Of a stretch of 25,403 nucleotides of DNA, positions 4,420-23,194 are shown piece after piece. The notes beneath the pieces were generated by a model. It did no database searches. It saw only the letters and a program-made list of their open reading frames with translations, and had not been told where the DNA came from. Source of the DNA: a virus; the IMG/VR virus record IMGVR_UViG_3300032294_001025, positions 1 to 25,403 of that record; one strand, written 5' to 3'. The position numbers were made by a program, and so were the translations under genes. Every line of letters begins with the position of its first letter. Within the stretch, counting starts at the first letter, position 1.

Positions 4420-4427
4420 CAAAGTTA
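4420..4427 (-). promoter_or_regulatory. TAACTTTG, -7-like box with almost no leader
   Basis: On the minus strand TAACTTTG is followed by CACT and then the ATG of the 4044-4415 gene. With transcription normally starting a few bases after this box, the mRNA would be nearly leaderless. No TTG is seen at the -33 position. Two other leftward genes show the same 4-5 base spacing. Confidence 0.4.
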
Positions 4428-4432
4428 CTTCT

Positions 4433-6895
4433 TTATCGGCTACCGCTTAAGATGATGTCTACGATGTCTTCCTCTCCTTGGAGGTCTTCTTTGTTGAGCT
4501 CAGGACGCTCTCCTTTACGCTGCGAAATCAGTTTGCTTTGGGCTACTGCCTGCTCCTTAATGCGCTCGTCCTTGCGGTCTTCAGCCTCTTTATCTGCGCT
4601 CTGGCGAACACCTGACTCAATCTGCTGTTCTGCAATACCGTATTGGCCCTGAAGCTGTGCCAACTGCATCTTAAGGTTGTATTCAACCTGCAGAAGCTGA
4701 GCCTTGGCCTGTGCTTCCAGCTGAATCTTCTGTGCTTCTAGCTGAGCCTTCATTTGATCCTCCTGCATCTTGGCTTGTGAAGTTACTTGCGCAACTTGTG
4801 CGTTAGCCTGTGCTTGGAACTGAGAGTTCTGCTGAGCCATTTCCTGACGCTGCTTCATACGCTTTTTGCGGCGCACGATAAGCAGGCGCTCGGCTTGATC
4901 GATATCGCGCAGCTGGCGGATTGCCATAGCGTCCTCGATGTCAAGCTCACCCGCAGCGATAGACGCTTGGATGTTCTGCTCAAGGTACATACGGTCTACC
5001 TCGTTCATATCCGTTACCACGCGCACACCGAAGTTGTACATCGGAAGCTTAGCGAAGCTGGTAAGAACAGCCATATTCTCTCGACCGATAGCGGTCTCAT
5101 ATGCTCGGTACAGGATAGACTGAGGAGGCAGGATCTGCAAGCACTTAACTACGTCCTCACATACCTTGCGGTACAGAACCAGAGATGCGTTGGTGATGTC
5201 GTAGAGTGCGTTGTTGGCTGCTGCCAATTGCTGTTGGCGTACACCTACAAGCTGGTCTCCTTTCGGGCTAGAGCCATCCATTACCTCGTTGATGCCCGTA
5301 GCATCACGAATCATACGCAGTGCGTGGTTGTAAATTGTGATGAGTTCGTTGATGTTGCGGATAGCGTTGTCCAGTGGACGGATAGGCGGGTTCTGGAAAC
5401 TACCGTCAGGGTTCTTACTGCGGTAGTAGAACACACCAGTCTGCTCGTAGATGTCTTGGATGTCCAGAGGCTGGAGCTCTCCACCACGACCTAGCTGTAC
5501 GTTTTCCAGACCCTCGATGTCCACGATCAATCCATCAGGCTTAGCCTTCGCAATGGACTGCTGAAGCTTTAGGTGGGTGATCTGGATCTGGTCAGCAAAG
5601 CCGATAACAGAACTCACCATTGACTTAGGGATCATCCGGCGGATGTTGGTAGCCACAGCACTGTAGCTCATCTTCGTGCGGGTAAGGTCGTGTACGTTCT
5701 TCGGGATGTTCTTCTTTACTCCGTAGTCAAAGATGTACTCCGTGCCTACGATGAACTTACCTCCATAGAGCGTTTGGTTTTGCATATAAACGGCCTCACG
5801 GTCGTATACGCTCTGCTGCGGTGCGTTGTACTTATGGCCCTTGAAGTAGAAGCCGATGTTTCCAAAGCGAGACTCTTTCTTCTCAAAGATGATGTTGTCT
5901 ACGCTTACGAACTCAAAGTCCATCACGTCGATGGTGTACTCGTCGTATCCGTAGTAGTAGCGCTCCATACCCACGTCGTACTGTGAGTTCATAAATCGGT
6001 TGGGATCGTTACCAAAACGATTCATAACCGTGCGAGCCATATTCTCGTACTGGTCCTCGGTGAACTGATCACCAGCAATGCGCTTTAGCTCAGCGATGCT
6101 CATACGCTTCATATGACCTGCGTAGGTGATATCGCTAAACGTGGGATCGTCCGTGAAGCTGTGGATGAAGTATGCAGGATCTACATATTCCTCTACGATT
6201 CCGTAGTTCGGGTCGTTGCTGCGCTTGACAACAGCCATACCACAGGTAACGAGGTCCTCTACATTGCGACGAAAGATCTTCTCGTCAAAGTCATTCCAGC
6301 TAAGGGTAAGGTTCGTACCAATCTGTGCGGCAATCTCAGCTGCCGTCTTTACGTTGGTCTCAAGGAAAATCTCTGCCTCTTCAGCAGTGTCAGGCAAAGC
6401 GTCGGGATCAACAGCAGTGCGGAGACCGCTGTCCTTTGCTTCCTTCAGTACGTCCTTGTTCTCGATGAAGATCTTGACCTTGTTCTTCTCAATGTCCTTC
6501 TCGCTGCGGCTTAATGGATCGATAGCCTCGAGGTTAGGGTAGAACTTAGCAGAAAGAATCTTGTTTACTACAATCTTTACGAACTTAGGTACGATAGGTA
6601 CTGGAGTCCAGTCAAGGTTTACCAGTGAGCCATCTCCGTTGTTCGGATCTAGTGAGGTGAGGATTTGCTTGTAGATAGAAGTGTCTTGCGTACCGTTGGC
6701 GTAGTCTCGTGAAATCTCAAATTCCTTCCAACGCTTGCTGTAGAGTGAGCCCTCCCACTGGGCACTACCCCACTGTCCGTAGATAGCCTTAGCATACTGA
6801 AGGCCATAGCCTTTGCTAGCCTTAATCTCGTGTGATGCTAGCGGGTCGGGGAACGTAGAATCGTATCCGCCGCTTTTAACTGAGTATTGATCCAT
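4433..6895 (-). CDS. Portal protein (crAss-like type)
   Basis: An 820-residue protein directly downstream of the large terminase, the usual portal position. Portals form the dodecameric ring at one capsid vertex through which DNA is packaged and ejected. Features seen: an N-terminal region with RDYANGTQDTS (about residues 64-74) and a WTPVPIVPKFVKIVVNKI segment typical of large portals of Bacteroidota phages; a central region with many aromatic residues (YDVGMERYYYGYDEYTIDV); and NEVMDGSSPKGDQLVG, a motif region shared by portals of this type. From about residue 660 to 790 there is a long Gln/Ala/Glu/Lys-rich coiled coil, followed by an acidic tail. The length matches the roughly 800-residue portals of crAss-like phages. 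The call rests on these segments plus position; a profile search was not run. Confidence 0.82.
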   Translation of the reverse strand: MDQYSVKSGGYDSTFPDPLASHEIKASKGYGLQYAKAIYGQWGSAQWEGSLYSKRWKEFEISRDYANGTQDTSIYKQILTSLDPNNGDGSLVNLDWTPVPIVPKFVKIVVNKILSAKFYPNLEAIDPLSRSEKDIEKNKVKIFIENKDVLKEAKDSGLRTAVDPDALPDTAEEAEIFLETNVKTAAEIAAQIGTNLTLSWNDFDEKIFRRNVEDLVTCGMAVVKRSNDPNYGIVEEYVDPAYFIHSFTDDPTFSDITYAGHMKRMSIAELKRIAGDQFTEDQYENMARTVMNRFGNDPNRFMNSQYDVGMERYYYGYDEYTIDVMDFEFVSVDNIIFEKKESRFGNIGFYFKGHKYNAPQQSVYDREAVYMQNQTLYGGKFIVGTEYIFDYGVKKNIPKNVHDLTRTKMSYSAVATNIRRMIPKSMVSSVIGFADQIQITHLKLQQSIAKAKPDGLIVDIEGLENVQLGRGGELQPLDIQDIYEQTGVFYYRSKNPDGSFQNPPIRPLDNAIRNINELITIYNHALRMIRDATGINEVMDGSSPKGDQLVGVRQQQLAAANNALYDITNASLVLYRKVCEDVVKCLQILPPQSILYRAYETAIGRENMAVLTSFAKLPMYNFGVRVVTDMNEVDRMYLEQNIQASIAAGELDIEDAMAIRQLRDIDQAERLLIVRRKKRMKQRQEMAQQNSQFQAQANAQVAQVTSQAKMQEDQMKAQLEAQKIQLEAQAKAQLLQVEYNLKMQLAQLQGQYGIAEQQIESGVRQSADKEAEDRKDERIKEQAVAQSKLISQRKGERPELNKEDLQGEEDIVDIILSGSR

Positions 6896-6912: not shown

Positions 6913-6920
6913 CAAAGGTA
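6913..6920 (-). promoter_or_regulatory. TACCTTTG, -7-like box upstream of the portal gene
   Basis: TACCTTTG on the minus strand lies 17 bases before the portal ATG, in the 34-base gap after the terminase gene. It fits TAnnTTTG, but no TTG stands 19-20 bases further upstream. Confidence 0.35.
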
Positions 6921-6929
6921 CAAGTTATC

Positions 6930-9047
6930 TTAGCGCGTAATTTCCTTACCCTTGCGGAAGAAAACCTTGTCATTGAAGTCTACCTTCTTGACTTGCTTTA
7001 CTTGTTTTTGTGCTGCGAGAAGTGCTAGTCCAGACGAAATCGTCAAGTCAAACTTAGTTCGATCGTCAATCTTAAAGTTAATCCAATCCTCTAGTGTTCG
7101 GTTGAAGTACATCCTACCAAACATTCCAGTCTCGTTGTGAAGGCCGACGTGGTCGTGGATGTACGCCTCAATTGCCTGAGCGTGAGCCTGGATTACGTCT
7201 TGGCTGTTGGATGGGATACCCTTAGTCTTGACGCTTGACTTCATTGCTGTTGTAGCAAGGTGGTCTGGACGTGCCATCAGGTACTCGTCGTAGCCCCGTG
7301 TTTCAAAGTAGCGAGCAATTCCGTACTTGTTGTTTTCTATTAGCACAGGATAACCGTAGAACACCGCGGCCATCAGCACATCCTCGTAGAAGATCTTTGC
7401 AAGTGGCGGACGACTAGCGTACTCTGCTACGAACATATTCGCCGGATGCTCCATTGAGAACTTGTTGTAGACGTGGCACGCACCCTTTGATGCTCGGTAG
7501 TCAATAGTAGTGTCAAGGTCATAGGAGTCAACACCCATTACGCCAAACGCAGAGTTAGGAGCTACCAATTTGTTGTTCTCGGTCTTTCGTTTATTTCGAA
7601 TATCGGGAGGAGCAAGCCACGCTACTCTCCATCTTCCATTTGGATCTGGAGCAAACACAACCTCTGTGTCCTGCTTTCCGTCCTTCCACTGGAAGTTTCC
7701 GATGATCACTGGATTTGGGAACAGCTCTTCGTTATGTTGAATCTGCTCGTAGATCTTCTGGATGTTGAACAGCGAAGACTTAGTTGAGTCGCGGAATGCT
7801 TCGTCTTCGGTAAATGGGAACTGACGGATGATTTCGTTTAGTTCGTAGCTGTTGTTCTGCTGTCCCTTGCGCTCGTTCTTTAGAAAGGTACGTGCTCCAA
7901 TCGAAGTGAACGTCCCATCCTCAGTCATCACTGGCTGCTCTGGATCCTCAATAATAGGCATACCATATTGGTCAAAAAATCCCTCCAATGCTTCATAAGC
8001 TGGAATAAAGATTTTATATAGACCACTTTTGGTACGTCCGTTTTCGTTGCGGTCATTTGGGTCCGAGTCGTAGTACAAGTCTCGGAACTCGCGTCCTCCC
8101 TTGTCGAGTGGGTTTACCGTAGAGCCAACCATTGCCTTTCCAATCACCTTGCGACCAACGAGCAAACAGGTGCGGTGGATGCGCCATACTTCACGTATGT
8201 CATTAGGATTCAACCACTTACCGGCCTCGTCGAGAAACAACATATGGGTCTTGCTACCGTCGTATGCGTTGTTGGTTGTGTTCTTCCAGTTGATGATGGT
8301 GTCTAGTGCCTCGCCGCGGTAGGATGTCTTGTTCTTTTTGGTGATGCGCTTGGCAGGTTCACGGAACGCAAGCTCCATCCGTGGGTTGGTGGTACCGTCA
8401 AGGATAGGCTTTAGGAAGAATGGGTAGCTACGGAAGATGGGTACAATCTTTGAGCCGAACACAGCCTCTTGAGCGTCAGTACCCGTCTTGCTCATAATGC
8501 CCAACAGCTTCTCAGTTACCTGCGATCCCTCGTCCACTAGCGTAGCAGCGCTCATATTGGTGTATCCAGAGCGTCGACACTTGGTGTATATCTGGCCAAG
8601 ACACCGAGGATCAGCCTCGCACGCCGCAAAGTGTGTGAACAGCTTACGCTGGAAGTCTAGGTATCCCGGGTATCCGATGTCAATCTTACTCCACTGGAGA
8701 AACATATAGTGGTGTCCAGTAATGTACGTTGGAACACTATTATTCATAAACCAAAGACCTTCTCTCCTGCGTCGAAACTCCTCCTCAATGTACGGACTCC
8801 ACTTCTGTTGGAACTCACGCGGTGCTTCGTACCAGTCGTCCATACTCTGGATCTGCTGAAGCTCACGTGGCATCTCCTCACGTACCCAACGTTGGTTCAC
8901 TTCTGGTGAACTTGCGTACAGGATATCCTTTGGCATAGCCGGAAGCTGAATCAGGATAGACTCAATCTCAATGATGGGACCATCCGACCCATTGGGACAG
9001 ATGTTCACCACCTCTTTGCCGTCTATCATCTTCAGCCCTGCCATCAC
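6930..9047 (-). CDS. terL: Terminase large subunit
   Basis: A 705-residue packaging motor ATPase and nuclease. Visible motifs: a crAss-like N-terminal signature with PTYITGHHYMFLQWSKIDIG (residues 106-125) and DFQRKLF; a degenerate Walker A region CRRSGYT (about 157-163); a Walker B strand MLFLDEAGK (269-277) with the catalytic DE pair; and a coupling motif GSTVNPLDKGG (308-318). In the C-terminal nuclease half, the first acidic motif is GVDSYD (505-510), with candidate further acidic residues near VLIENN and in TKFDLTISSGLAL. It would cut concatemeric DNA and pump it through the portal encoded next. Its ATG overlaps the previous gene by 4 bases. The length is normal for this family and all expected motif regions are present, so the enzyme looks intact. 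Confidence 0.9.
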   Translation of the reverse strand: MMAGLKMIDGKEVVNICPNGSDGPIIEIESILIQLPAMPKDILYASSPEVNQRWVREEMPRELQQIQSMDDWYEAPREFQQKWSPYIEEEFRRRREGLWFMNNSVPTYITGHHYMFLQWSKIDIGYPGYLDFQRKLFTHFAACEADPRCLGQIYTKCRRSGYTNMSAATLVDEGSQVTEKLLGIMSKTGTDAQEAVFGSKIVPIFRSYPFFLKPILDGTTNPRMELAFREPAKRITKKNKTSYRGEALDTIINWKNTTNNAYDGSKTHMLFLDEAGKWLNPNDIREVWRIHRTCLLVGRKVIGKAMVGSTVNPLDKGGREFRDLYYDSDPNDRNENGRTKSGLYKIFIPAYEALEGFFDQYGMPIIEDPEQPVMTEDGTFTSIGARTFLKNERKGQQNNSYELNEIIRQFPFTEDEAFRDSTKSSLFNIQKIYEQIQHNEELFPNPVIIGNFQWKDGKQDTEVVFAPDPNGRWRVAWLAPPDIRNKRKTENNKLVAPNSAFGVMGVDSYDLDTTIDYRASKGACHVYNKFSMEHPANMFVAEYASRPPLAKIFYEDVLMAAVFYGYPVLIENNKYGIARYFETRGYDEYLMARPDHLATTAMKSSVKTKGIPSNSQDVIQAHAQAIEAYIHDHVGLHNETGMFGRMYFNRTLEDWINFKIDDRTKFDLTISSGLALLAAQKQVKQVKKVDFNDKVFFRKGKEITR

Positions 9048-9340
9048 TTCTTAGCCATTCGTTCTGCGAATCCTCCCTTGAAGTCCTTCTCCTCCTCGAA
9101 TCCACCGGACTCCTCGAGGTCACCAATCAGCTGTTCTAGCTTTTGACGCTCCACAATAAGCTCCTTGCAGGCTAGTGCCGTATCCTTGATGGCTTGTAGC
9201 TCCGCCTTACGAGCAGAACCAGTAAGTTCTGGGTCTACCGGCTTGCGAATCTCCTCGGTCATATTATTGATGGCGGCCTCCATAGCAGATATGAGGTTCT
9301 TCGCAGCGTTTGCTGTAGTGAACTTTACTTCTTTACGCAT
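9044..9340 (-). CDS. Small helical protein in terminase small subunit position
   Basis: A predicted protein of 98 residues starting at the ATG at 9340 (MRKEVKFTTANAAK). A longer GTG start at 9367 is possible but would increase the overlap with the upstream gene from 16 to 43 bases, so the ATG is preferred. The sequence is strongly helical, with ELQAIKDTALACKELIVERQ and KLEQLIGDLEE forming a likely coiled coil, and ends in a charged tail. It overlaps the terminase large subunit start by 4 bases. Small terminase subunits are short helical DNA-binding proteins usually encoded just before the large subunit, so that role is plausible. No helix-turn-helix is clearly visible, so the function is inferred from position only. 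Confidence 0.6.
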   Translation of the reverse strand: MRKEVKFTTANAAKNLISAMEAAINNMTEEIRKPVDPELTGSARKAELQAIKDTALACKELIVERQKLEQLIGDLEESGGFEEEKDFKGGFAERMAKK

Positions 9341-9903
9341 AGCAGGTGGTGAATTTGCATACGCCACAGCTTTCGCCCATTGATGTCCATCTCATAGTCA
9401 GCATCCTTAGCAAAGAACACCACGTCGCCAACAGCAAGACCTTCTGACTCCAACCACTGGCTGCCGTACACAATACGTCCCCAGCGCTTCTCTGGCTCCT
9501 TAAACGTAACTAATTCGATAACATCGCTCTTAAGTTCAGGCTCAACCTCAACTGGCTCAAGGAATACCCAGTCGGCTACAGCAATCAGCGTTCCGTCTGG
9601 CTTCTCGATCAGGTAGGCTTGGTTAGCGCTACCGCCAAATTGGTCGTAGTTGACGCGGTAGATCTTTTCCTTCGGATCAACAACCTGCGTGTCGTTAAGT
9701 GCAACGTGGTGGTGGTGGAATACGTAGTCTCCTACCTCAACCTGACAGTCAAACTTAGCTGGAACACCAACTACCTTAGCCTTCATCGTGCGATGCTGGA
9801 ACTCGTTGTACTTGGTGTCTACGTATAGTTCGGTCTCTCCGACCTTCATCGTCTCATTGACAGCCGATGGGATGTGTACCAAGATATGGTATAGTGGTTT
9901 CAT
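9325..9903 (-). CDS. Putative co-chaperonin with two GroES-like modules
   Basis: A 192-residue protein starting at the ATG at 9903; an upstream extension to 9990 overlaps the preceding gene and is not needed. The C-terminal part (about 140-192) reads like a GroES fold: WGRIVYGS, GLAVGDVVFFAKDADYEM, INGRKLW and HHLLCVKK match the 'GKV..VG', 'VGDVVLF.KYAG.E', 'idg.eY' and 'ILAV' segments of GroES. An earlier part (about 40-117) repeats the pattern with KAKVVGVP, VEVGDYVFHHHHV and DWVFLEPV. Two modules in one chain would be unusual; bacterial GroES has one, about 95 residues long. T4 Gp31 shows that phages use their own co-chaperonin to fold capsid protein with host GroEL, which fits a late gene near terL. 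The fold was assigned by eye; a structure prediction would settle it. Confidence 0.6.
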   Translation of the reverse strand: MKPLYHILVHIPSAVNETMKVGETELYVDTKYNEFQHRTMKAKVVGVPAKFDCQVEVGDYVFHHHHVALNDTQVVDPKEKIYRVNYDQFGGSANQAYLIEKPDGTLIAVADWVFLEPVEVEPELKSDVIELVTFKEPEKRWGRIVYGSQWLESEGLAVGDVVFFAKDADYEMDINGRKLWRMQIHHLLCVKK

Positions 9904-9935
9904 ATGAAGTAATTTAAATTGTAAGTCGGTTACAA

Positions 9936-10169
9936 CTAAAAGTTGCAGTCGTACTCTACGATCGTAGGCATACCCTCGATAGACTTCCACAGCATAATAC
10001 CGCTCTCCTTTTTCAAATAGATAAGGTAACGACGCTCGCCGTGGTTATGTAAGTGCTGTCCATCGAGTATGATGGAGTTAATCTCTCCATCGCCAGCTTT
10101 CTGTCCCACATAGTAGGCCAGAGCTTTTAGCGGATCAGTGCCCGCAATGATTTTACGAATAAGGTCCAT
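9936..10169 (-). CDS. Small conserved-type phage protein, unknown function
   Basis: A 77-residue protein not recognised. The sequence begins MDLIRKIIAGTDPLKALAYY, a likely helix, followed by a beta-rich part with NSIILDGQHL, RRYLIYLKKE and a final IVEYDCNF. No signal peptide, membrane segment or catalytic motif is seen. It sits 5 bases after the stop of the 99-residue gene upstream and 32 bases before the GroES-like gene, and its A/T-rich leader (TAAATTAAATGAA) is like those of the other genes here. It is likely co-transcribed with the packaging and virion genes. Confidence 0.6.
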   Translation of the reverse strand: MDLIRKIIAGTDPLKALAYYVGQKAGDGEINSIILDGQHLHNHGERRYLIYLKKESGIMLWKSIEGMPTIVEYDCNF

Positions 10170-13247: not shown

Positions 13248-13255
13248 CAAAGTTA
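13248..13255 (-). promoter_or_regulatory. TAACTTTG, -7-like box with a 5-base gap to the ATG
   Basis: On the minus strand TAACTTTG is followed by TACCT and the ATG of the 12829-13242 gene. It overlaps the intergenic gap after the endolysin stop. There is no TTG at the -33 position. Transcription starting here would give a near-leaderless mRNA. Confidence 0.4.
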
Positions 13256-16140: not shown

Positions 16141-17514
16141 ATGGAACTCAAGCCTTTATTTTGTGTTGGCGAGACTGTAATGATTGTCAAGCCTGAGGAT
16201 CCCATCATTAAGTGGAACTCAGAAGGAGGTATGGACCACCTTATGGGTGAGCTACGTACTATTGTAGAAGTAGATGTATTTACTTATGACGGAACCGATA
16301 CAGTGCGTTATCGAGTTAGCAACGACGGACGCGGCAACGGAAATTACTGGGGCTTTTCTGAGGACTGTTTACGCGAGCCAGACGGTAGTGTTCGGGAACG
16401 CAAGGAGCCAGAGCCTACGTACGACGACCAAGGTCGAGAGACAGTACTAACTAGTTCAGGAGAATTTATCCTTAAAGAAGATGCTGTTCTAACAGACTTT
16501 GACGGGTGGGTTCACGTTGACGAGGTGTTGACTGCTGATGACGGCAAGACGATGCACCAAGACAACTACCGTGACCACGGATACCGAGAGACTCCTAGCG
16601 GTGAGGTGTTCCACAAAAGCGTACTCAATTACGTACAGGACCTAGGCGAGTGGCATCATCAGGACGACGAGGATGATTCTCACTTCCGCCATAGTGACGG
16701 AGACTACTACTCATACGAAGAGCCTGCAAACGACCGACACGATTACCACGCGGGACCTCGTGAGAACTACTCAGACGGCGCTAAGTTTCGGTTTGGCGTA
16801 GAGGTAGAGAAGGAGGACTATAGGCCTATGAGCAACTACGAGCTATACGAGGTAGACAATACTGGGTGGGCTCGTGAGCGTGACGGTTCCCTCGACGACG
16901 AATCAGGCTTCGAGCTAGTTAGTCCTATGTTTGACTTGTTCGGAGATCGTTTCGACGAGCAGGTAAACAGCGATATCCTATCCGAACACATCAACGCCAA
17001 ACATACTAGTTCGTGCGGTGGTCATATGGGGTTCTCTATCAAGAACAAGCGCGGCGCTCAGGTCTTTGACTTGTATAACGGATTCTTCCCGCTGCTTATT
17101 GCTATGTACCGCAAGCGTCTTAATGGCGACTGGTCTAAGCTACGTACTAACAACAGCTACAAGAGCGGGCGACATCGGTACTCAGCTATCAATGTTCAAA
17201 GTGGATACATTGAGTTCCGCATCTTCAGTGCTGTTAAGGACGTATCTAACTTGCTATGGCGCAGGGACTTGCTACGTATTATGGCCAAGAACCCGAAGAA
17301 GGGTGTTATGTGGTGGATTAACCAAGCTATGAACCCTAACTCAGCTCTTCACAATCACATATGTAAGGTGTACAGCATTGAGAATATAACCAAGCTGTGT
17401 GCTTATGCTGCTGCCATTGCCGAGCGTATGAACGGCAGGGAGTATGTGGGTCTTGTGCATTTTGCCGACGAAGAAGTCAAGCAAAGTGCCAAGCGATTTG
17501 TATCTAACGTTTAA
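16141..17514 (+). CDS. Amidoligase-family COOH-NH2 ligase, paralogue 1
   Basis: A 457-residue protein. Its second half (about 215-440) carries the amidoligase signature of the glutamine synthetase-like fold: FGVEVEKE (218-225) with the Mg-ATP-binding Glu pair, GWARERDGSLDDESG (242-256), ELVSP (258-262), CGGHMGFS (292-299), and IEFRIFSA (357-364) with an Arg following a Glu. This family (Amidoligase_2) joins carboxyl and amino groups using ATP. The motif usually read as H-x-H is H-M-G here, so the second His is missing. The N-terminal half begins with a small beta domain (1-85), then a His/Asp/Tyr-rich stretch (about 135-205) of unknown role. It is followed by the amidotransferase at 17554 and paralogue 2 at 18488. 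The substrate is unknown; peptides, cell-wall stem peptides or a nucleotide adduct are all possible. Confidence 0.8.
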   Translation: MELKPLFCVGETVMIVKPEDPIIKWNSEGGMDHLMGELRTIVEVDVFTYDGTDTVRYRVSNDGRGNGNYWGFSEDCLREPDGSVRERKEPEPTYDDQGRETVLTSSGEFILKEDAVLTDFDGWVHVDEVLTADDGKTMHQDNYRDHGYRETPSGEVFHKSVLNYVQDLGEWHHQDDEDDSHFRHSDGDYYSYEEPANDRHDYHAGPRENYSDGAKFRFGVEVEKEDYRPMSNYELYEVDNTGWARERDGSLDDESGFELVSPMFDLFGDRFDEQVNSDILSEHINAKHTSSCGGHMGFSIKNKRGAQVFDLYNGFFPLLIAMYRKRLNGDWSKLRTNNSYKSGRHRYSAINVQSGYIEFRIFSAVKDVSNLLWRRDLLRIMAKNPKKGVMWWINQAMNPNSALHNHICKVYSIENITKLCAYAAAIAERMNGREYVGLVHFADEEVKQSAKRFVSNV

Positions 17515-17553
17515 TTGTTTCTTTTTTCTAATTCTATTTAATTCTTTTTTCTT

Positions 17554-18468
17554 ATGTGTATTGCAATTCTAAACAACGGTAAAAAACTAACCCGTAAAGA
17601 AATGTCTAACTGCTGGGTGTCTAACGACGACGGCGCCGGTATGCTGTTCATCAAGGACGGATACCTTCAGGTCATCAAGCAACCCAATACTGATGGCTTC
17701 AATCGTGCAGGTGCTGCCTTCGACAAGTTCTACAAAGACTACGAGATGGTCTATGCTGAGTCACGTCAGTTCGGTTACCCTATTCTTGTTCACTTCCGTA
17801 TTGCTACTCACGGTATGGATCCCGAGTACCTACATCCATTCCTTGTCAGCGACAGCGTGGGCCTTATCCATAACGGCATCATCTACGGATATGGCACGCG
17901 TGAGGTCAGCGACACTGCTGAGTTTGCCCAAGAGCTAGCTACGCTGCCTTCTGATATGACTAAGAACGTAGAGTTCCTTGACATTCCATTCGTTGCCAAC
18001 TCTATCTTCGACAAGCTAGAGGCTAGTAACAAGGTTATCTTTATGGACGACCGCGGCGAGTACCGCATCTTCAACGAGCAGCTCGGTCACTGGGTCGGCA
18101 ACAACTGGTTCAGCAACGACGCGTACAAGACACGCACTACGTACTACGGTTCTGCTGTTGGCAAGCCAATGGCTAAGTACCAGCCACGTACTCAGAGCTA
18201 CTACGACAAGTGGTCTGCTGATGATTGGTACGGTGATGCTGCCTTTGGAACAGCAAATCTGCCTGCCAACACATCGACAAGTAGTACGCCATACATCTTC
18301 GACAAGAAGTACGATTGCTTCGTGTGTGCTGATGAGGTATACGTCAACGACGAAGCTTGTTGCGTAACGTGCAACTCATACATTGTAGACTCTGAGACTG
18401 ATGTAGTCAACAAGATGCTCAACGAAGATGCTATGCTCAAGCAGTACGGTAATGTTATTATGGACTAA
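17554..18468 (+). CDS. Class II glutamine amidotransferase
   Basis: A 304-residue Ntn-type enzyme that releases ammonia from glutamine. It starts MCIAIL, so removal of Met exposes Cys2, the class II nucleophile; this fixes the start. Other family motifs are in place: NDDGAGMLF (24-32), HFRIATHG (80-87) with the glutamine-binding Arg82, LIHNGIIYG (104-112) with the oxyanion Asn-Gly pair, and SDT (119-121) with the glutamine-binding Asp. It has no synthetase domain, so ammonia must go to a partner; amidoligase genes lie 39 bases upstream and 19 bases downstream. The C-terminus carries CFVC and CCVTC (about 267-290), a likely zinc ribbon. The Ser/Thr/Ala-rich part before it may be a linker. A leader of T-rich sequence precedes the ATG. 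Confidence 0.88.
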   Translation: MCIAILNNGKKLTRKEMSNCWVSNDDGAGMLFIKDGYLQVIKQPNTDGFNRAGAAFDKFYKDYEMVYAESRQFGYPILVHFRIATHGMDPEYLHPFLVSDSVGLIHNGIIYGYGTREVSDTAEFAQELATLPSDMTKNVEFLDIPFVANSIFDKLEASNKVIFMDDRGEYRIFNEQLGHWVGNNWFSNDAYKTRTTYYGSAVGKPMAKYQPRTQSYYDKWSADDWYGDAAFGTANLPANTSTSSTPYIFDKKYDCFVCADEVYVNDEACCVTCNSYIVDSETDVVNKMLNEDAMLKQYGNVIMD

Positions 18469-18487
18469 TGTTTAAACAGATTGTATT

Positions 18488-20233
18488 ATGAAAACTATTG
18501 ACTTAGCTAACGTTATGGCGTTACCACGCCACCCAAAGACCGATGGTATTTTCACACGCTTGGTTAACGGTGAGCAGATGTTTATTGACGTAGACATCCG
18601 TATTGTTCCAACAACAATTGGCGTACTTCGTCCTATGTTTAACTGGGACGGTTCAATTCCAAGCAATGGGCTCATCAATGTTCGACTTACCACAAGTGGC
18701 TTTATGGGATTTGTCTGCGTACAAACAAGGGTAGGCAACTTTAGCGATTCCTTAACAGAAGAGGTGTGTATTTCAGAGACTGACTTCCGATACGACACTA
18801 CAACTGTTGACAAGAACACTCTGGATTTACTTCTGTGGTCTTCTACTGTTGACGACAACAATCCGTTAGAGAATACAGTACTTGGCAAACGAGGCGGAGT
18901 TATAGAGCTCGGCGCTGTGTTTACCCATCCTCTATCGTTTAAGAACAAGTCCTTAACTACAGACGGCATCCCCGTTGAGTTTTTCGGTATATCTACCACC
19001 GACGGACAGGAAGGTGTAGCTATTTTGTATGAGCCAAAGGATCGTATTGCAACCAGTGAATACATAGAGTCTATCAGAGGTAGAGAACGATATATCTGTA
19101 TCAGCTGGTCAAATGAACACAGACAATACGTTACGTGCATTGACGGTGTTACTCGTGCAACTGAAGACTGTAAGCCTTGCATTACTGACATCACCGAGAC
19201 AGGACTAGGTAACGCTATCGTGTTCGTTGGTTTTGTCCCTCGTTCTACGCTTAATAGCATAGTTACTTTCACTACTGTAGATAGACTGGACAGCAACTAT
19301 GATGAGATGCTTATATCAGAAAACACCGCCAATAGACTCATCGGTAAAACATATGGCTCACTCACTCCTGTTATGTACGGTAATAGGTTCTGCCTTGATG
19401 AAAGCCGCAAGCCTATTCGTTACCGGCTTGACTACCACTCTAGCGATAGGGATACTGCTGAAGAGATAACATCAGGTATGACTATTGGGTTTGAGGTAGA
19501 GAAAGAGGACGAGAGTGCGCTTAAGTCTTACGATGCATACACTCTTCTTGAGGATACCGGATGGTTCAAGGAACGAGACGGATCTCTTGACGATGACTCA
19601 GGCTATGAACTTGTCAGTCCTATCTACGACCTGATGAGCGACAAGCTAGACGACGACATCAAGTCAAGTCCTCAGCTCACTGAGCTTATCAATGCTGACT
19701 ATGGTCGACGTTGTGGTGGACACATCCACATTGGTAACGGCAACAGTGGTGCCACGTTGTTTGACAAGATGTCACCTTGGATTCCTCTTATCTATTCTCT
19801 GTACGTTGGTCGCATCGGTGGTGAGTACTGCAAAATCAAGAAGAACAAGGACATCAAGGACGACCACGACAAGTATCAGGCCGTGCGAATCTTTGACAAC
19901 CGCATCGAGATTCGCATCATCTCTGCTGTACCAAACGTAGAGACCCTGCTATGGCGTAGAGACTTGATGCGTATGATTATGAATAATCTTGACTGGACAC
20001 CAATGAAGATTATGAATCAGCTACTCGACGATAAGAGTGAGCTGTATGCTCTGCTGCATAAACAGTACACGCCATCACAAATAGCTGTCAAGGCTAGGCT
20101 CTATGCCTACTTTGCTTCTGAGCTACTTGATGATGCTCACGCTGTCAAGCAACACATTATGAATGCTGTAGACTACTTCAGCAAAACACAAATTCGTCAC
20201 CTTAAATCATACTCTTTCAATGTCAACCAGTAA
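18488..20233 (+). CDS. Amidoligase-family COOH-NH2 ligase, paralogue 2
   Basis: A 581-residue protein with a C-terminal amidoligase domain (about 330-560) clearly related to the gene at 16141. Motifs: IGFEVEKED (333-341), WFKERDGSLDDDSGYELVSP (359-378), CGGHIHIGN (409-417) with both His residues, and IEIRIISA (473-480), followed by TLLWRRDLMRM as in paralogue 1 (NLLWRRDLLRI). Here the H-x-H motif is intact, so this is the copy most likely to be a full ligase. The first 330 residues are a different, mostly beta-structured region with scattered Cys (VTCIDGVTRATEDCKPC, about 215-231, a possible metal site), not recognised. It overlaps the next small gene by 14 bases. It probably acts with the amidotransferase 19 bases upstream, perhaps as a complex of both paralogues; substrate unknown. 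Confidence 0.8.
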   Translation: MKTIDLANVMALPRHPKTDGIFTRLVNGEQMFIDVDIRIVPTTIGVLRPMFNWDGSIPSNGLINVRLTTSGFMGFVCVQTRVGNFSDSLTEEVCISETDFRYDTTTVDKNTLDLLLWSSTVDDNNPLENTVLGKRGGVIELGAVFTHPLSFKNKSLTTDGIPVEFFGISTTDGQEGVAILYEPKDRIATSEYIESIRGRERYICISWSNEHRQYVTCIDGVTRATEDCKPCITDITETGLGNAIVFVGFVPRSTLNSIVTFTTVDRLDSNYDEMLISENTANRLIGKTYGSLTPVMYGNRFCLDESRKPIRYRLDYHSSDRDTAEEITSGMTIGFEVEKEDESALKSYDAYTLLEDTGWFKERDGSLDDDSGYELVSPIYDLMSDKLDDDIKSSPQLTELINADYGRRCGGHIHIGNGNSGATLFDKMSPWIPLIYSLYVGRIGGEYCKIKKNKDIKDDHDKYQAVRIFDNRIEIRIISAVPNVETLLWRRDLMRMIMNNLDWTPMKIMNQLLDDKSELYALLHKQYTPSQIAVKARLYAYFASELLDDAHAVKQHIMNAVDYFSKTQIRHLKSYSFNVNQ

Positions 20234-20456
20234 AATCGAAGCTAACTTCAGCAAGCCGTACAAGCACGGCCTTACACGTTCAACTGCATACGTAACAGCA
20301 TTTGTGTCTATCGATGCGCCTAACCACCGCTTCAAGATAGATGTCACTAGTGGTCACGATACTATGGGCACTGGCTCTGACTTCAACATACCTAAGATGG
20401 AAGCTACGCTGCGTATGAAAGAGGAGATTCTAGAGTACATCAAACAGCACCTTTAA
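20220..20456 (+). CDS. Small unknown protein after the amidoligase (78 aa)
   Basis: A 78-residue protein whose ATG lies 14 bases inside the end of the amidoligase gene, suggesting coupling. It contains a beta-like part (TAYVTAFVSIDAPNHRFKID), a short polar loop with HDTMGTGSDF, and a C-terminal helix (KMEATLRMKEEILEYIKQHL). Because it is tightly linked to the cassette it could be an accessory or a carrier, but no carrier motif such as a phosphopantetheine site is seen and the family is not recognised. Confidence 0.55.
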   Translation: MSTSKIEANFSKPYKHGLTRSTAYVTAFVSIDAPNHRFKIDVTSGHDTMGTGSDFNIPKMEATLRMKEEILEYIKQHL

Positions 20457-21763: not shown

Positions 21764-21794
21764 TTGCATATCAGTAAGATTGCTGCTATATTTG
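21764..21794 (+). promoter_or_regulatory. Promoter of the recombination operon
   Basis: TTG (21764-21766), 20 bases, TATATTTG (21787-21794), a full match to the Bacteroidota consensus, 21 bases before the ATG of the ERF gene. The -33 region AACACTTGCAT is the same as at 20919-20929, suggesting that both are recognised or regulated together. Confidence 0.75.
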
Positions 21795-21815: not shown

Positions 21816-22406
21816 ATGGAAAAACTAACATTCCAACAGCGACTGATTAACGTCCAGTCGCGGCTGAAGGCTCCAAAGTCTCAGTACAATTCGTTCGGTA
21901 AGTACGCTTATCGTAACCAGGAGGACATCCTCGAGGCAGTAAAGCCTCTGCTTGCAGAGAACGGACTGACTATGACAATCTCCGATGAGATCATTGGCGT
22001 TGGCGAACTTATGATTGTTCGTGCTGTTGTCAAGGTAACAGATGGAGTAGATGCTACTGAAGTATCAGCCTGCGCTGGTATTGACACCAACCGTAAGGGT
22101 ATGGACATCGCACAATCTTTCGGAGCATCGTCTTCCTACGCTCGCAAGTATGCGCTCAATGGTACGTTCTTGATTGACGACACCAAAGATGCTGACGCTA
22201 CCAATACTCACGGACGTGAGGCAGCAGCACCGGCTACACGTACTGCGGCTAAGCCTCAAGTAAAAGATGACGACAAGTTCCAGCGGGCTATGGACTCAAT
22301 GAAGGAGAAAGGTACCAAGGAGCAGTACGACAAGATTGTATCTGCTATGGGTTCTGAATTCACTCCTGATCAGTATACAGCTCTTTCTAAGTTCATCAAG
22401 AAATAA
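21816..22406 (+). CDS. erf: ERF-family single-strand annealing protein
   Basis: A 196-residue recombinase of the ERF family, which anneals complementary single strands during phage recombination and replication. The N-terminus (LTFQQRLINVQSRLKAPKSQ, then NSFGKYAYRNQEDILEAVKP) and the core signature with DIAQSFGASSSYARKYALNG (about 97-116) followed by DDTKDAD are typical. A polar Ala/Thr-rich linker (about 130-150) leads to a C-terminal helical part. Length fits the family. The RecE-like exonuclease gene follows with TAATG overlap, and an SSB-like gene comes after it, so the three probably work as a two-component recombination system. Expression is expected from the promoter at 21764. Confidence 0.88.
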   Translation: MEKLTFQQRLINVQSRLKAPKSQYNSFGKYAYRNQEDILEAVKPLLAENGLTMTISDEIIGVGELMIVRAVVKVTDGVDATEVSACAGIDTNRKGMDIAQSFGASSSYARKYALNGTFLIDDTKDADATNTHGREAAAPATRTAAKPQVKDDDKFQRAMDSMKEKGTKEQYDKIVSAMGSEFTPDQYTALSKFIKK

Positions 22407-23194
22407 TGAACGAGATCGTATTGCTTGACGGCACGTCTTGGGACCTGCCCACGATCCTTGAGGCTATGATGGATGATGACTTCTACTATGGCTATCTTTC
22501 TTCTGCTTCACTATCATCTTCTTCCGACAAGCTCCTTAACCAGAGCCCGAAAGAATATGCAAAGATGTTGCGTGGGAATTCCCTTGACACAGCCGCGCTT
22601 GCAATGGGTAAACTAATTCACACCGCAGTCCTTGAACCCGATAAAGTTGATACTCTATTCGTCACTGTTGATGTTGCTTCTAAGTCTACTAAGACGTATA
22701 AGGAAGCGAAACAACAGCTAACGAAAGGTCAAACGCTGTTGACCGAGAAGGAATACAGCGACTCTATGTATGTTGTAGACGCACTACTTCGCAACGAGGT
22801 AGTCAAGAATATGCTCAAAGGTGCAGAGTTTGAGATGCCCGCCATTGGCGACGTCGAGGGCTTGCCGCACCGGGCTAAGGCTGACATCCTCCACCGCGGA
22901 GTAGCAGTCTACGATCTTAAGACAACCTCCGACATTGGAGGCTTTAACTACAGCGCACGCAAGTATGGATATCCAGCTCAGGTATACATCTACTGCACGC
23001 TGTTTGGAATTGACTACAAGAACTTCAAGTTCATTGCAGTTGATAAAGGTAGCAAGGACATCGGTGTTTTCTCCGTATCCGAAGCCTTCTACCTCGAGGG
23101 TAAGCGTCTTGTTGAGAATGCTGTTCGTGTTTATACGGACTACTTCATCAACGGCGAAGACCTCGATACCTACATAATCTACGGAGAGCTTTAA
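22406..23194 (+). CDS. RecE-like PD-(D/E)XK exonuclease
   Basis: A 262-residue nuclease that would resect double-stranded ends to give single strands for the ERF partner. Family features: an N-terminal YLSSASLSSSSDKLLNQSP segment typical of RecE/YqaJ-type phage exonucleases; MGKLIHTAVLEPD (67-79) with His72; HRAKADILHRG (155-165) with catalytic Asp160; VYDLKTTSD (168-176) forming the D-x-K core Asp170 and Lys172; and YPAQVYIYC (189-197) with the conserved Gln192. The core motif has Asp where many relatives have Glu, a common variation. It overlaps the ERF gene by one base. All catalytic positions are present, so the enzyme looks active. Confidence 0.85.
   Translation: MNEIVLLDGTSWDLPTILEAMMDDDFYYGYLSSASLSSSSDKLLNQSPKEYAKMLRGNSLDTAALAMGKLIHTAVLEPDKVDTLFVTVDVASKSTKTYKEAKQQLTKGQTLLTEKEYSDSMYVVDALLRNEVVKNMLKGAEFEMPAIGDVEGLPHRAKADILHRGVAVYDLKTTSDIGGFNYSARKYGYPAQVYIYCTLFGIDYKNFKFIAVDKGSKDIGVFSVSEAFYLEGKRLVENAVRVYTDYFINGEDLDTYIIYGEL

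Follow-up and report, generated by a model that had tools for sequence, protein, structure and literature searches.

A phage cassette of two amidoligase paralogues around a class II glutamine amidotransferase: a probable set for glutamine-dependent amide formation

A two-ligase cassette in a phage genome

The subject of this study is a set of three consecutive genes of an uncultured phage, in the IMG/VR virus record IMGVR_UViG_3300032294_001025, which was analysed over its full 25,403 bp and is here called the window. The outer two genes encode putative amidoligases (AL1 and AL2), and between them lies the gene for a class II glutamine amidotransferase (GAT). All three are on the plus strand in the order AL1-GAT-AL2, with intergenic gaps of 39 and 19 bp, and we regard them as quite probably an early-region set for glutamine-dependent amide formation. 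An earlier note on this DNA had described two divergent paralogues of the amidoligase family flanking a class II amidotransferase. This description holds: the ligases share 38% identity over 238 residues (E=6e-42), and the models of both match glutamine synthetases (GS) with Z-scores of about 10.

The profile searches suggested at that time gave a divided answer, as both Pfam families are matched, yet below the curated cut-offs. In single-protein searches Amidoligase_2 (PF12224) is reached with E=0.0076 by AL1 and 8e-4 by AL2, both under the gathering cut-off, and GATase_6 with E=0.0082 by GAT. Among relatives, 13 of 65 aligned amidoligases match PF12224 at E<=0.01 (the best at 3e-7) and 21 of 37 aligned GAT members match GATase_6. 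Because the single-protein matches are weak, the case presented here is built on relatives, fold and residues.

For GAT the residues are complete, as had been claimed. C2, the nucleophile position of class II enzymes, which becomes the first residue once the initiator M1 is cleaved off, directly follows M1 in 37/37 aligned sequences, and the glutamine-binding Arg, Thr, Asn-Gly and Asp (R82, T85, N107, G108 and D120) are equally invariant. GAT was also aligned to GlmS, and its profile retrieves GlmS (E=6e-5) as well as PurF (E=7e-3) from the PDB. Judged by its sequence, GAT is a class II glutaminase with all glutamine-handling residues in place. A zinc-ribbon-like motif near its C-terminus is partly conserved, with Cys255, 258, 270 and 273 kept in 30, 23, 21 and 21 of the 37 sequences.

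In the ligases, E221, E223, E246, D248, S250, G256, E258, C292-H295, R326, E358 and R360 (AL1 numbering) are invariant across the 65 aligned amidoligases, and the catalytic positions are invariant as well in a second alignment of 47 sequences. The metal- and ATP-binding motifs E-x-E, G-x-E, GGH, R and E-x-R are kept, the equivalence to GS being one of motif order and not of residue-level superposition. A search of PDB sequences with the AL profile returned no match; the GS-like fold is seen through structure search. In the AlphaFold model of AL1 (predicted local distance difference test, pLDDT, of 91), residues 212-400 superpose on GS with Z 10.0 (171 aligned residues, root-mean-square deviation (rmsd) 3.8), and residues 326-503 of the AL2 model do so with Z 10.2 (165 aligned, rmsd 3.7). 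The 50 structure matches listed for the two catalytic halves all belong to the GS superfamily: GS itself, GmaS, YbdK-type and glutamate-cysteine ligases. The fold on which the earlier reading had been made to depend is found in both models. AL1 and AL2 are confidently modelled as GS-fold ligases with intact catalytic motifs, and by their residues both look active. A chance match to the motifs was also considered; it is ruled out by the fold, the invariant residues and the co-inheritance described below.

Ahead of the catalytic halves lie variable N-terminal regions. At the N-terminus of AL1, Foldseek finds MSL3/MRG15 chromo-barrel and tudor chains with a probability of about 1.0, template modelling (TM) scores by target of 0.5-0.7 over ~75-80 columns, and E-values of just 0.03 and above. 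This is moderate evidence that the modelled domain resembles SH3-like chromo-barrels. The run of short hairpins that follows it possibly represents degenerate zinc ribbons, an equivalence drawn from bacterial AL relatives, which carry CxxC zinc-ribbon-like repeats ahead of the ligase domain. AL2 begins with a fast-evolving region: compared with locus L007, the nearest relative holding all three genes, its residues 1-303 are 42% identical, the catalytic half 90%. The latter is under strong purifying selection, with nonsynonymous divergence (dN) of 0.06 against synonymous divergence (dS) of 0.71, and in the same comparison dN lies well below dS for AL1, GAT and AL2 alike.

Pairing and inheritance of ligase and glutaminase

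The partnership of ligase and glutaminase extends far beyond the window. An AL stands upstream of 72 of 76 distinct GATs, in 67 cases within 200 bp and with a median gap of 41 bp; of the four others, two lie where a contig begins and two come from Stenotrophomonas phage StenR_269. Seen from the ligase side, a GAT follows within 3 kb downstream in 58/58 sampled AL1 relatives with room on the contig, the sample having been collected with an alignment in which most ALs were GAT-linked. Erf, the next commonest neighbour family, occurs at 16 of 70 loci. Across 63 loci the distances among ALs are correlated with those among GATs (Spearman 0.63, 0/500 permutations), at nine AL-GAT-AL loci all three protein pairs show such a correlation, and AL2 of the main clade always comes after an AL1-GAT pair where contigs allow. 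The joint inheritance that the earlier note proposed to check across relatives is observed: the cassette genes are inherited together.

Origins of the two-ligase arrangement

The AL2s of the nine AL-GAT-AL loci form one clade (support 100/99), and so do their AL1s (100/99), the latter together with the AL1s of L018, where the sequence stops just after AL1, and L008. The L008 locus holds AL1-GAT and a small open reading frame (ORF) and is without AL2, which reads as a loss. At least two further lineages came to this layout independently. L066 acquired its own AL-GAT-AL through a separate duplication (100/92), and a Treponema metagenome-assembled genome (L104) has another, whose two ALs are sisters and 50% identical over 172 columns. 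Further variants exist: in L090 a third AL, a distant one, lies 823 bp downstream, and in L260 GAT is followed by an AL that falls outside the AL2 clade.

Two irregular loci were noted in passing. In L010 a second GAT (9042-10124) follows AL2 to give AL-GAT-AL-GAT; on visual inspection its part beyond residue 165 resembles a degenerate GGCT (gamma-glutamylcyclotransferase), for which a Pfam search gave no supporting match. In L045 a frameshift, an intervening sequence or an assembly error divides the amidoligase at 4559-5950 into two ORFs, which are followed by an intact GAT.

The GGCT family (PF06094) provides a hint to the chemistry of these cassettes. It occurs in 13 of 50 AL-GAT records. 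In L094 it lies directly upstream of AL-GAT, and in Caudoviricetes MW202828.1 (L264, 5923-7140) the gene immediately downstream of the amidoligase encodes GAT fused to GGCT, with a C-terminal tail rich in cysteine. No record showed GGCT alongside AL2, which amounts to about one clade-level contrast and is a lead, not a result.

Genomic setting and host

The coordinates of the cassette and its parts are collected in Table 1.

Table 1 Features of the cassette, with positions in the window and the evidence for each
Feature	Position	Strand	Evidence
AL1, GS-fold amidoligase, 457 aa	16141-17514	+	ORF, fold model, invariant motifs
AL1 N-terminal SH3-like/chromo-barrel domain, ~residues 1-80	16141-16380 (approximate limits)	+	Foldseek; limits from model secondary structure
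AL1 short beta-hairpin run, ~residues 90-200	16408-16740	+	Model secondary structure
AL1 catalytic half, residues 212-457	16774-17511	+	AlphaFold model, structure match
GAT, class II glutamine amidotransferase, 304 aa	17554-18468	+	ORF, invariant residues, profile matches
GAT C-terminal CxxC...CxxC zinc-ribbon-like motif	18316-18372	+	Cysteines partly kept in relatives
AL2, second GS-fold amidoligase, 581 aa	18488-20233	+	ORF, fold model, invariant positions, clade support 100/99
AL2 N-terminal region, residues 1-211, fast-evolving, fold not predicted	18488-19120	+	pLDDT under 50
AL2 catalytic half, residues 326-581	19463-20230	+	AlphaFold model, structure match
78-aa ORF, possible fourth cassette member	20220-20456	+	14-nt overlap with AL2 end; relatives at or near cassette 3' ends

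The 78-aa ORF has its relatives in L007, L008, L010, L019, L037, L041 and L049; against L007 its dN is 0.04 and its dS 0.78, and a PHROG search gave no match. To the left of the cassette, on the opposite strand, lie genes for an endolysin, a GroES-like protein, terminase and portal. To the right, on the plus strand, follow Erf and an exonuclease VIII-like gene. The GroES-like co-chaperonin gene (window 9325-9990, minus strand) adjoins the terminase gene, and MW202828.1 has a gene annotated as groEL. A further observation concerns the window and L007: their exonucleases (22406-23194 in the window, 12444-13232 in L007) are ~100% identical as proteins with a dS of 0.08, while the AL1s of the same two phages are 66% identical with a dS of about 2, a sign of mosaic exchange.

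Which organism does the phage infect? Relatives of its large terminase subunit (TerL) in phage records come mostly from Flavobacterium and Cellulophaga phages, and also from those of Tenacibaculum, Maribacter and Azobacteroides, the closest found being that of MW202828.1 with 48% identity. The -7 promoter motif of Bacteroidota is TAnnTTTG. It occurs 29 times in the window, where 15.5 are expected and none of 100 shuffles reaches as high a count, and sites lie near several gene starts (e.g. 4420-4427, 6913-6920, 13248-13255 on the minus and 21787-21794 on the plus strand). Taken together, the TerL relatives and the enriched motif make a Bacteroidota host likely. A tblastn search of AL2 against phage records and a megablast search with the cassette region gave no match.

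A proposed mechanism and its rivals

Where a GS-fold ligase constantly has a class II glutaminase at its side, glutamine-dependent amidation of a carboxylate is the natural interpretation. In such a scheme the N-terminal cysteine of GAT would hydrolyse glutamine and free ammonia, while AL1 and AL2 would spend ATP to convert a carboxylate to an acyl phosphate. The ammonia, handed from GAT to the ligases as the family suggests, would then attack the acyl phosphate to yield an amide. AL1-GAT would be the core pair and AL2 a paralogue retained beside AL1, probably serving another carboxylate or a further step and drawing on the same ammonia source. We consider this chemistry likely. The pathway of carboxyl amidation proposed in the earlier note is upheld as far as the pairing goes, with its chemistry read from the families.

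The target is a separate matter. A gamma-glutamyl-containing host molecule appears most likely, and gamma-glutamyl chemistry, on a wall peptide or a metabolite, is favoured because related cassettes carry GGCT, once fused to GAT. Of the three targets offered before (cell-wall peptide, protein, modified nucleotide), this brings the first forward, and nothing was found that points to a modified nucleotide; they are not equally likely. The leading candidate would be the stem peptides of the cell wall, an assignment that we make tentatively and with more doubt than confidence. Speculatively, stem peptides amidated during infection could change the wall, impede rival phages or influence lysis. In an extended form, which we think doubtful, a machine of two ligases and one GAT would amidate two carboxylates, such as two positions of the wall peptide, and would have evolved at least three times, with AL2 replacing GGCT as the second component here.

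The cassette may instead make small gamma-glutamyl metabolites, such as the gamma-glutamyl-amines that GmaS/PuuA produce, and serve nitrogen or polyamine management in infection. The top three Foldseek matches of AL1 and several top ones of AL2 are indeed gamma-glutamyl-methylamide synthetases, and GGCT, which acts on gamma-glutamyl-amines, is linked to or fused with GAT in relatives. The Z-scores of classic glutamine synthetases are equal or higher, however, so that the fold does not choose the substrate, and a ligase that uses amines would need no glutaminase partner; we judge this unlikely. Amidation of protein carboxylates in host or virion seems improbable to about the same degree. Here AL1 and AL2 would read their substrates with their variable N-terminal domains, in line with the fast evolution of the AL2 N-terminus, the SH3-like/chromo-barrel-like domain and hairpin repeats of AL1 and the zinc-ribbon-like repeats of its relatives, as domains of these kinds often bind peptides or nucleic acid. 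Yet the neighbourhood of the AL-GAT pair yielded no recurrent partner protein, and the link to GGCT is a poorer fit. Hypermodification of phage DNA, in which the cassette would amidate a modified base, we hold to be very improbable. The cassette's place in the early region close to the recombination genes Erf and exonuclease VIII-like would suit such a role, but a carboxylated base would need another maker, and the commonest neighbour families, classified by reading and without a model-by-model scan, are not those of base modification, although a few (e.g. family 9) may act on DNA.

A different question is whether AL2 is an enzyme at all. As a non-catalytic or regulatory subunit it would form a hetero-oligomer with AL1, which would accord with its constant place behind AL1-GAT in the main clade and with L008 managing without it. 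The catalytic positions of the AL2 clade are all invariant, which disfavours a pseudoenzyme, and the purifying selection on its catalytic half speaks the same way; a subunit role is accordingly hard to credit.

Several observations weigh against glutamine-dependent amidation of the cell wall by a co-inherited trio, or narrow its scope. Because the alignment used for sampling held mostly GAT-linked ALs, the complete pairing seen from the ligase side describes the AL subfamily and not all amidoligases. Part of the shared gene order is vertical descent, as most trio phages with a detectable TerL are of one lineage: the TerL proteins of L011, L017, L037, L041 and L049 are 70-78% identical to that of the window and that of L010 37%, none being detected in L007 and L066. 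On the other hand, divergence is much greater in the cassette proteins than in TerL (ligase domains 42-54% and GAT 38-45% identical, outside L007 and L019), and the flanking genes differ among trio phages. The loss in L008 means that AL2 is not always needed. No GGCT was found in the window record or in the AL-GAT-AL records G001-G005, G007, G008 and G031, which may be incomplete. Nor was a RimK-family ATP-grasp found in the window or the trio records in a search that covered this ATP-grasp family and matched the controls and StenR_269, so that the link to published wall-modification modules is indirect. A search for COOH-NH2_lig (PF14395) matched nothing, and its control search likewise matched nowhere.

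Relation to known systems

Phage cassettes of amidoligase and glutamine amidotransferase (GATase) have been described before, in LUZ24-like phages, PSA-HP1 and relatives, and MEP401/402, and a role at the cell wall was proposed for them (PMC3890496, PMC5498523, PMC10580990). The earlier note thus overstated the novelty of the locus. Editing of the host cell wall stands as a prediction there, and the prediction of Iyer 2009 is cited. Prophages with amidoligase and GGCT have been reported as well. The portions of the literature searched that were consulted yielded no account of experimentally tested activity for phage amidoligase-GATase cassettes.

How close are these systems to the present one? 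In the Methylophilales phages MEP401/MEP402, gp06-gp07 are an amidoligase and, immediately behind it, a class II GATase, an order shared with the window (PMC10580990). This GATase is 39% identical to GAT over residues 1-192; unlike the window, MEP401/MEP402 have a single amidoligase from a distant branch and another host group. The modules of LUZ24-like phages, phiEco32, RIO-1 and PSA-HP1 likewise hold amidoligase and GATase among early or DNA-metabolism genes, and they differ from the trio records in listing ATP-grasp and GGCT genes, some with a COOH-NH2_lig ligase, their function being a prediction too (PMC3890496, PMC5498523, PMC11945000). One trait of the LUZ24/phiEco32-type module, an amidoligase with a class II GATase, is present in the window. 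We regard the trio as a variant that would work like the published modules, but we do not file it as a member because GGCT and RimK-type ATP-grasp were not found.

Among individual phages, StenR_269 resembles the window in that a single cluster unites a related GAT with an amidoligase and with a gene carrying the annotation glutamine synthetase, but it has two GATs, ATP-grasp, GGCT and another gene order. MW202828.1 shares the succession of amidoligase and GAT; it differs in its GAT-GGCT fusion, and no second amidoligase gene was seen in the 10.6 kb examined. Among cellular systems, GatD is a class I GATase with a Mur-ligase-like partner protein and AsnB is of the asparagine-synthetase kind, both unlike the window cassette. 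With MurT/GatD and AsnB the likeness is one of function only: a peptidoglycan carboxylate is amidated by a glutamine-dependent enzyme (PMC3267633, PMC8554201).

What is new here is the co-inherited two-ligase form found without GGCT, its repeated origin and the GAT-GGCT fusion. Being compact and constantly paired, the set offers clear point-mutation controls. The comparison of AL-GAT-AL phages, in which GGCT was not found, with their sister AL-GAT phages, which often carry GGCT and in one case the fusion, points towards gamma-glutamyl chemistry and opens the substrate to a direct test by mass spectrometry.

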